This document shows positions 12,419-15,329 of a stretch of 64,000 nucleotides of DNA, one piece after another (position 1 is the first letter of the stretch; each line of letters opens with the position of its first letter). The notes beneath the pieces were generated by a model. It did not search any database. It was not told the origin of the DNA and was given only the letters and a program-made list of their open reading frames with translations. This stretch comes from Solilutibacter silvestris (GTDB lineage Bacteria; Pseudomonadota; Gammaproteobacteria; Xanthomonadales; Xanthomonadaceae), in NCBI RefSeq assembly GCF_002895945.1, contig NZ_NPZB01000002.1, forward strand, positions 744,001 through 808,000. Reading direction: 5' to 3'. The position numbers and the translations under genes were made by a program.

Positions 12419-13210
12419 ATGCCCAGATATGCGCTCGGCGTCGAATATGACGGCAGCGCTTTCCACGGCTGGCAACGCGTGGAAGCCGGTGTTCGCAACG
12501 TGCAGGAAACGCTGGAGACCGCACTGTCGTCGGTGGCCGATCACCAGGTCCGCGTGGTCTGTGCCGGCCGCACCGATGCCGGCGTCCATGCGCGTTGCCA
12601 AGTGGTGCATTTCGACAGCGATGCCGTGCGCGACGCCCGCGCATGGACGTTGGGCACCACTTCGCGCCTGCCTGCGGATGTCGGGGTGTTGTGGTGCCGG
12701 GAAGTCCCGGACACGTTCAGTGCCCGCTTCTCGGCGCTGTCACGCCGCTATCGCTACCGCATCCTCAATCGCCAGGTCCGGCCTGCGTTCGAGCGCCAGT
12801 ATCTGACCTGGGAATTGCGACCGCTGGATCATTCGCGCATGCACGCCGCCGCGCAATTCCTGGTGGGCGAGCACGACTTCGAAGCGTTCCGCAGCGCGCA
12901 ATGCCAGGCCACGCACGCGCGCCGCCACCTCCATTCGATTTCAGTGGAGCGCCATGGCGATGAAGTGGTGATGGACATTCAGGCGAACGCCTTTCTCCAT
13001 CACATGGTGCGCAATATCGTCGGTTCGTTGCTGCCGGTGGGGCGTGGCGAGCGTCCGGTCGAATGGATTGCCGAATTGCTGGCGGGCCGGGATCGCACGC
13101 TGGCCGGTCCGACCGCGCCAGCCCAAGGATTGCTGTTTGTCGGTCCGCAATACCCGGGGGAATGGACCCTGCCGACAGAGAATACGTTTACACCGCGAGA
13201 GCCTGAATGA
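12419..13210 (+). CDS. truA: tRNA pseudouridine(38-40) synthase TruA
   Basis: The 263-aa product converts uridines 38-40 of the tRNA anticodon stem to pseudouridine. The catalytic Asp is D53 in [11 protein letters not shown], the invariant family motif. The N-terminal [10 protein letters not shown] and the C-terminal [11 protein letters not shown] are also typical. It starts 17 bp after fimV and ends about 120 bp before the trpF-like gene. Confidence 0.97.
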
Positions 13211-13224
13211 TTCATTGAGTGGTA

Positions 13225-13246
13225 GTTTGTGCCAGCGTCCACAAAC
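13225..13246. promoter_or_regulatory. Hairpin in the truA / trpF-like gap
   Basis: GTTTGTG (13225-13231) and CACAAAC (13240-13246) form a perfect 7-bp stem around an 8-nt loop. No T-run follows, so it is not a standard terminator. It could be an operator or a leader structure for the trpF-like gene. The surrounding 120 bp is richer in A and T than the flanking genes. Confidence 0.35.
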
Positions 13247-13330
13247 ACTGCAAAAACCGGTACTTGCGTGTGGATTGGCCTTCACAGGCAATCGATATCC
13301 TGCAGTCCTCCTGCTTCGTCTTGACGTTAC

Positions 13331-13984
13331 GTGCTGAAGGATCAGTTTTCGCGGACCCGCATCCGTTTCGATGGGTTCACTCGCCCTGGCGATGTCAGGT
13401 TGGCCAGTGAATTGGGCGTCGATGCCATCGGTTTTGAATTTGCCCAGGGTGCCCGCCGCCAGATTCGCGTGGAGGATGCGCGATTCATGCGCCATGCCTT
13501 GGCGCCGCTGGTGTCGGGCGTCGCGATCCTGCGCGACAACAGCGTCGATGAGGTGCGCGAAGTCGTGCGCCAGTTGCGGCCTGCGTTGCTCGAATTCCGT
13601 GGCGATGAAGACGATGTGCGCATGCGCTCGTTCGGCGTTCCCTATGCGCGGGCATTGCGGCGCGAAGAGTGGGCGATGATGAACGCAGGCAGCTTGCAGA
13701 CGCGCTATCCGAATGCGTCGATGTTCGTGCTGTATGCGGACGAGACGGAAGAACCCCCGGCACTGGAAGCGGAGTGGTCGTGGTTGCCGGAAGGCCTGGC
13801 CAGGCCGCTGATGTTGGCTGGCGGTATCGCCCCTGGCAACGTGTCGGCAATCATCGGGACGCTCGGGCCCTGGGGCGTGTCCGCCCTTGAAGGCATCGAA
13901 GTGGCGCCGGGACGAGTGGATGGCGATCGCATGAACAGCTTCCTGCGCGAATCCCGGGATGCCGATTGCCGCAAGGGCCGCTAA
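13331..13984 (+). CDS. TrpF-like protein lacking the phosphoribosylanthranilate isomerase active site
   Basis: This intact 217-aa frame occupies the trpF position after truA and aligns end to end with TrpF: RTRIRFDGFTRPGDVRLA, GVDAIGFEFAQG and LAGGIAPGNV are clearly homologous. The catalytic residues are gone. The Cys of the (I/F)CG motif is D14. The Asp of the LLDS motif aligns with Y135. The FHG motif reads FRG. The GGxGxxFDW phosphate loop is replaced by EPPALEAEWSW, and the DVSSGIE phosphate-binding segment reads SALEGIE. True TrpF isomerises phosphoribosylanthranilate in tryptophan synthesis; this product very probably cannot. The start is GTG. There is no frameshift or stop, so either recent decay or a new non-catalytic role is possible. 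The comparison is with remembered TrpF sequences. Confidence 0.8.
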   Translation: MLKDQFSRTRIRFDGFTRPGDVRLASELGVDAIGFEFAQGARRQIRVEDARFMRHALAPLVSGVAILRDNSVDEVREVVRQLRPALLEFRGDEDDVRMRSFGVPYARALRREEWAMMNAGSLQTRYPNASMFVLYADETEEPPALEAEWSWLPEGLARPLMLAGGIAPGNVSAIIGTLGPWGVSALEGIEVAPGRVDGDRMNSFLRESRDADCRKGR

Positions 13985-14027: not shown

Positions 14028-14393
14028 ATGACCGACTCCAATCCGCAGGCTCCCCAATCCGGCCAACAGCCGGCCGGCCAACAGATCGACCCCGAATTCT
14101 TCGCCTGCAGCAATACCTACCTGGACATCGCCAACCAGCAGGCGCGCCAGCAGGGCATGCGTCGCGTCAGTGGCGCCATCCTCTTCGCTGCGGCACGTTA
14201 CAACGTGCACGCCTATCTTGGCTTCGAAACCGATATCCGCGGCACCAAGGATGAATTCCTCAACCACATGACCGATCTGTACCGGAGCATGCTGGAGGAT
14301 CACCTGATGGGCATCGCCAATGAGCGCGGCATTGCGCTGGATGCGCCTGCGGACCAGCCTGCCGCCGCAAACGACACCATGCCGCCGGTCTGA
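14028..14393 (+). CDS. DUF3144 family protein
   Basis: The 121-aa product has no signal peptide or membrane segment. A Gln/Pro-rich N-terminus (to about residue 20) precedes a helical domain with FACSNTYLDIANQQ, RVSGAILFAAARYNVHAYLG and a FLNHMTDLYRSMLEDHL segment, which I recognise as the DUF3144 pattern. The function of the family is unknown. It sits between the trpF-like gene and accD, where relatives as I recall carry trpB and trpA. A GATAAT box at 13991-13996 could drive it. Family assignment is from memory of the motif pattern. Confidence 0.7.
   Translation: MTDSNPQAPQSGQQPAGQQIDPEFFACSNTYLDIANQQARQQGMRRVSGAILFAAARYNVHAYLGFETDIRGTKDEFLNHMTDLYRSMLEDHLMGIANERGIALDAPADQPAAANDTMPPV

Positions 14394-14438: not shown

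Positions 14439-15325
<887 letters not shown>

Positions 15326-15329
<4 letters not shown>

Follow-up and report, generated by a model that had tools for sequence, protein, structure and literature searches.

A TrpF homologue without its catalytic residues, under purifying selection in a Lysobacteraceae genus and best read as a pseudoenzyme left by replacement of its pathway

The window analysed here, that is, the whole stretch of 64,000 nucleotides from Solilutibacter silvestris, carries at positions 13331..13984 of its forward strand an intact open reading frame (ORF) of 217 aa derived from trpF; its GTG start is the third codon past an in-frame TGA, and both the start codon and this upstream TGA are conserved in the six of six genomes aligned. 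The three neighbouring genes described here lie on the same strand. Upstream, truA for the tRNA pseudouridine synthase (12419..13210) marks the position of an old trpFBA cluster, and it is parted from the trpF-derived gene by an intergenic stretch (13211..13330, forward strand) that is partly conserved in six genomes, its conserved blocks including TCCAC and GTGG in inverted form. This stretch of about 120 bp is not seen in the native loci read, where the trpF gene directly adjoins truA or overlaps it; a consensus scan around the gene found neither a sigma-70-like promoter nor a terminator. Downstream follows a co-retained gene for a DUF3144 protein (PF11342) of 121 aa when read from the ATG at 14028 (14028..14393), an alternative upstream ATG at 13959 being so placed that the gene would overlap the trpF-derived one, and then the gene at 14439..15329, the downstream border of the old cluster by position and conservation, which we take from the gene order to be accD.

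The ORF matches the TrpF family PF00697 at 60.3 bits (cut-off 22.7), its score against the NCBIfam equivalog NF002296 is 214.2 bits, below the cut-off of 270, and it is the sole PF00697 match at E <= 0.001 in a genome of 2.85 Mb with an estimated completeness of 100%. No family besides PF00697 was matched in Pfam and NCBIfam at E values up to 1, which includes the HisA/HisF family of Pfam, presumably PF00977. The protein aligns end to end with solved TrpFs, its AlphaFold2 model is a (βα)8 barrel with a pLDDT of 91.1, and the first 12 matches of this model in a PDB comparison are TrpF or bifunctional TrpC-TrpF structures. The first-pass annotation, which had described an intact, full-length TrpF homologue in the trpF position with its fold signature kept, was thus right on both counts. 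In the plasmid collection, matches to the protein occur in 31 records, every one below 60% identity. By ancestry, the ORF is a native trpF inherited by vertical descent within a Lysobacteraceae genus.

The residues on which TrpF chemistry depends are nevertheless gone, and the ORF is the homologue of an enzyme without that enzyme's catalytic residues. In the alignments, codon 14 (GAT, 13370..13372, forward strand) places Asp where TrpF has its catalytic Cys, codon 90 (CGT, 13598..13600, forward strand) places Arg at the His of the FHG motif, and codon 135 (TAT, 13733..13735, forward strand) places Tyr where the catalytic Asp would be. Alignment with solved TrpFs and with 50 native ones, these being chosen rows rather than all loci, confirms the two catalytic replacements read at first pass, and in the model the catalytic pair is likewise absent, residues 14 and 135 sitting at its places at the C-terminal ends of strands 1 and 6. 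Asp14 is present in all eight copies of this form found in the genus, versus Cys in 50/50 native TrpFs; the change takes two base substitutions, and both GAT and GAC are used among the eight, so that the Asp has been kept through synonymous changes. Residue 135, an Asp in 50/50 native TrpFs, is Tyr in two copies, His in four and Arg in two. At residue 90, His and hence FHG is retained in 5/8 copies, Arg occurs in the window only, and the remaining two have Ala and Ser; the reported change of FHG to FRG therefore holds for this genome and not for the group. The annotated loss of the GGxGxxFDW and DVSSG segments also stands in part, since GGxG is deleted and the D-x-x-S-G motif of β8 is replaced, with its Asp and Ser lost, while the Trp of FDW is kept in 8/8 copies. 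All eight copies have lost the Asp acid, GGxG and the β8 Asp; residue 184 is Ser or Val, and residue 188 is Gly, Ser or Glu. The Lys two residues ahead of the catalytic Cys is also lost in the window protein, whose sole Cys is residue 213, in the tail, and three of the eight copies have no Cys at all. Among 111 sequences (110 loci and the window), a TrpF match was obtained for 109 and the Cys and Asp pair for 83 by pairwise alignment; two further loci (L009 and L073), left out of the large alignment, show Gly and Ser at the Asp column pairwise and are canonical on reading.

HisA, like PriA, has an Asp as catalytic residue at the place of the TrpF Cys. The exchange of Cys for Asp alone is not a loss of the active site, since Asp is catalytic there in PriA, whose catalytic residues are named as Asp9 and Asp169 in PMC5404923. 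The pseudoenzymes have only the first of these two Asp residues, Asp14, the second place being Tyr, His or Arg. The phrase "without its active site" used at first pass was accordingly slightly too strong for the Cys replacement alone, and it is sound for the second acid, the loop and the phosphate segments, the joint loss of which argues against PRA isomerase activity. The changes do not look like those of a face set free from all constraint: the catalytic-face loops, taken as a whole, with a mean column identity of 0.74 in six pseudoenzymes versus 0.73 across five native sequences from the genus, are as conserved as native ones, the β8 loop being looser (0.72 versus 0.89) and the β1 end (0.94 versus 0.80) and β5 loop (0.73 versus 0.46) tighter than in the native proteins. 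Besides Asp14, three positions only (46, 47 and 136) are newly invariant, and both halves of the barrel are conserved to the same degree as in native TrpF. With so few new fixed residues and this native-like conservation of the halves, nothing marks out a new surface for binding. The conserved N-terminal half was considered as pointing to a new interface, an idea rejected because native TrpF shows the same.

The pseudoenzyme form occurs in 8 of the 17 same-genus genomes, the window's own (G000) included, the others being G002, G003, G005, G007, G011, G014 and G015; in eight further genomes the native TrpF is canonical, and in one (G001) trpF is broken. The copies of G002, G005, G007, G014 and G015 are 70-75% identical to that of the window, and those of G003 and G011, missed by the Pfam search, 41-42%. 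The eight form one clade inside the Lysobacteraceae TrpFs with a support of 100/98, and a concatenated marker tree (17 to 19 genomes per gene) also groups the eight genomes (95.1/95). A profile built from the eight copies scores them at 365-415 bits, the next best among 297 family genomes reaching 282. When patterns drawn from them were scanned against 84,980 species genomes, 50 loci were confirmed and five had the Asp form, all in metagenome assemblies (Lysobacter sp. clean267, SZAS-108, SZAS-109, SZAS-110 and SH_66_9); these are apparently the copies of G002, G005, G007, G014 and G015 again rather than additional genomes.

The ORF is free of stops in all eight genomes. The comparison of dN/dS with orthologues proposed at first pass gives a median of 0.19 (range 0.11-0.27; 15 pairs of the six genomes other than G003 and G011). 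The values for comparison are 0.05 for AccD, 0.12 for TruA in five genomes, 0.21 for native TrpF in the genus and 0.25 for the replacement TrpF treated below. All of these are Nei-Gojobori counting estimates rather than likelihood tests, and the pseudoenzyme pairs were taken within each of the two subgroups. For the pair G003-G011 the value is 0.09 (bootstrap 0.05-0.15), which is rough given a dS of 1.5, and dN is 0.13 in the pseudoenzyme versus 0.34 in the replacement TrpF. The gene is maintained by purifying selection, like canonical TrpF. Of the two fates offered by the first-pass annotation, the eight-genome clade, the invariant Asp14 and the canonical-like dN/dS favour a pseudoenzyme kept for another role, and a very recent relic is not supported by a clade of this breadth under such selection.

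Tryptophan synthesis itself is accounted for elsewhere in the genome. A complete trpEGDCFBA operon, in which matches to trpA, B, C, D and E lie together, is located at G000:C2:172882-179169, with trpG between trpE and trpD and, between trpC and trpB, a gene for a TrpF of 209 aa (L052:8786-9415, on the same contig outside the window). The suggestion that the organism should need tryptophan if no other trpF existed is therefore not supported, the search for trpA to trpE and a further trpF having found all of them in one operon. This second TrpF is not reported by a PF00697 search of the genome at E <= 0.001, and the absence of a second trpF by that search was misleading; the divergent TrpF was recognized from its position in the gap between trpB and trpC, by blastp and with its own profile. 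Its motifs read K-V-C-G, H-G-G-S-G and L-A-G-G, with D-A-A-S at β8; Cys, GGSG and AGG are kept in 9/9 sequences, and the catalytic Asp place holds a Glu that is also invariant in 9/9. The protein is extremely divergent, with QPYLP where the FHG region would be. Its predicted structure is closest to TrpF, and its place and residues make it the likely true trpF product of the genome, presumably active, which would offer a test of how far a working TrpF can drift. For annotation, the consequence is that homology would give the name trpF to the pseudoenzyme gene, and a Pfam search would pass over the likely true trpF because of its low score.

The replacement TrpF is found at E <= 1e-25 in 9 of the 297 family genomes, namely the eight and one of another genus (G050), and a long branch parts it from native TrpF in the tree. 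The operon looks foreign and is read as laterally acquired; its donor was not found, the relatives of its TrpF in 11 other genomes of 369 from the class being weak (at most 77 bits). The tree of the operon TrpF (L034, L037, L039, L040 and L052-L054) conflicts with the pseudoenzyme and marker trees, in that it joins, with weak support, G000 with G015 (94/55) and places G050 inside the group (89/63). This conflict suggests that the operon may still be moving between lineages. In G050, truA and accD are immediate neighbours, and no trpF turned up at that site. In addition to the replacement operon, this genome has another trpB match above the cut-off and an incomplete match to IGPS, at C8:387367-388515 and C15:43331-43843, perhaps remnants of its native pathway.

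In other bacteria, trpFBA is flanked by truA and accD, according to a published survey (PMC2395257). The relatives carry trpF-trpB-trpA at the window's site, and the old native cluster has the order truA-trpF-trpB-DUF3144-trpA-accD, from which native trpB and trpA are gone in the eight genomes, trpF and DUF3144 remaining. The DUF3144 gene is present in 10 of the 19 genomes searched, that is, the eight and two native-trpF genomes (G004 and G010), where it lies between native trpB and trpA; the six other native-trpF genomes of the genus lack it, so native TrpF does not need DUF3144. DUF3144 also lies 3′ of trpF, with similar spacing, in two Thermomonas loci, one Luteimonas and one Lysobacter locus, and in L014 it lies downstream of trpF, cut at the end of the locus. 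The gene is constrained in its own right (median dN/dS 0.25, 15 pairs). G001 and G050 have neither a native trpF nor DUF3144, trpF being broken in the former and missing from the site in the latter. Two deletions have cut the relic in the sister genome G001 (L127:6867-7922) down to about 105 residues, and it contains one stop. This genome has lost the pathway, with no match to trpA, B, C or D and only faint traces of trpA, and is likely that of a tryptophan auxotroph. Some native clusters, those of G009, G006 and G012, include additional ORFs of roughly 170-190 aa that are interspersed with or next to trpF, trpB and trpA (L042:4913-5464, L044:3264-3770 and L043:4100-4663). An open-access literature search, which covers few subscription journals, returned no paper on DUF3144.

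The reading that we favour, and to which we give somewhat less than an even chance, is that the native trpF barrel became redundant after operon replacement and was retained as a folded protein for binding or scaffolding, without isomerase activity. An ancestor would have gained the whole trpEGDCFBA operon, which looks foreign; the native copies of trpB and trpA would then have been removed from the cluster, and native trpF, made redundant by the replacement operon, would have lost its isomerase chemistry while the barrel stayed under purifying selection as a pseudoenzyme, so that it would now work non-catalytically. The favoured, unproven partner would be the product of the next gene downstream, the DUF3144 protein, which is the other spared member of the cluster interior, because it was spared with trpF in the eight genomes and was not found in G001. 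This link is a correlation drawn from a single clade with two contrasts; it amounts in essence to one evolutionary event and could be due to chance. Native TrpF may already have had such a partner role as its second one; that native Lysobacteraceae TrpF has a second, non-catalytic role with DUF3144, which displacement of the pathway left as the sole function, appears rather unlikely to us, and if true it would be a natural separation-of-function experiment across eight species.

The main rival to a binding role is a new enzymatic activity, in which Asp14 would act as general base, as in HisA/PriA, on a substrate that lacks the phosphate grip of TrpF. The invariance of an Asp at the catalytic-base place, two base changes away from Cys and kept through synonymous changes, is compatible with chemistry, as is the catalytic role of an Asp in PriA (PMC5404923); the catalytic-face loops, not looser overall and tighter at the β1 end and β5 loop, point the same way, and the few newly fixed residues and native-like conservation of the barrel halves fit this proposal equally well. 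Against it, the second acid (Tyr, His or Arg), residue 90 (His, Arg, Ala or Ser) and residue 188 (Gly, Ser or Glu) provide no second conserved candidate there, nor is another Pfam or NCBIfam family matched at E values up to 1. It is this variation between lineages at the old catalytic places that favours the binding role, and we regard new catalysis as somewhat less probable than binding.

Three further explanations fare much worse. That the protein is a weak or conditional PRA isomerase, a back-up to a replacement TrpF which is itself odd in having Glu for the catalytic Asp, draws some force from PriA, where Asp can serve at the Cys place (PMC5404923), but the losses shared by all eight copies and the retention of Cys, GGSG and AGG in 9/9 replacement TrpFs make it improbable. 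Retention in cis only, as a leader for the translation or transcription of DUF3144 and accD, would suit the short spacing to DUF3144 and the conserved stretch upstream; selection acts on the amino-acid sequence, however, and in both halves of the barrel, and we hold this to be very improbable. A decaying relic, open by chance or recency, would account for active-site residues that differ between lineages and is the least credible of all, given dN/dS values of 0.09-0.27 over 16 pairs, with bootstrap upper limits that stay at or below 0.36 in six bootstrapped pairs, the lack of stops in eight genomes, and the very different state of the genuine relic of the genus in G001.

The comparison presents a core biosynthetic enzyme that has outlived its pathway, with canonical copies, a broken one and eight constrained copies without the catalytic residues in one genus, next to a neighbouring genus with no trpF at the site; this points to a hitherto undescribed role for TrpF or its barrel and gives DUF3144 a context. 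In the open-access literature, with few subscription journals covered, no TrpF-derived pseudoenzyme was found. Bacterial pseudoenzymes generally have lost catalytic residues while fold and selection are kept. With TrpF itself (PF00697; 1nsj, 1lbm and 1v5x) the protein shares ancestry, barrel fold and the place between truA and accD, and the AGG and FxG elements are partly kept; unlike TrpF, it has Asp for Cys and Tyr, His or Arg for Asp, it lacks GGxG and the β8 D-x-x-S-G, and a separate TrpF is encoded in the genome. Displacement of whole trp operons by lateral transfer has reportedly been described by Xie and co-workers, whose genes flanking trpFBA are cited in PMC2395257. Here too, a whole-pathway operon supplants split trp clusters, and trpF-trpB-trpA is bordered by truA and accD, with the difference that trpF, one of the displaced genes, survives as a pseudoenzyme under constraint. 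The gene-loss study of SubTrpF and SubHisA2 is reportedly that of Juarez-Vazquez et al. 2017. In PriA/HisA-type enzymes and SubTrpF/SubHisA2 (PMC5404923), a retained (βα)8 isomerase changes after the loss of pathway genes, as here, and the PriA/HisA type also has an Asp at the catalytic place of β1, as the pseudoenzyme does; SubTrpF and SubHisA2 keep one of two isomerase activities, whereas the present protein lacks the second acid, and its pathway was replaced rather than lost. Unlike PriA/HisA, the pseudoenzyme matches in sequence no family but TrpF (PF00697), and among these systems it is best read as a constrained pseudoenzyme left by replacement of its pathway.
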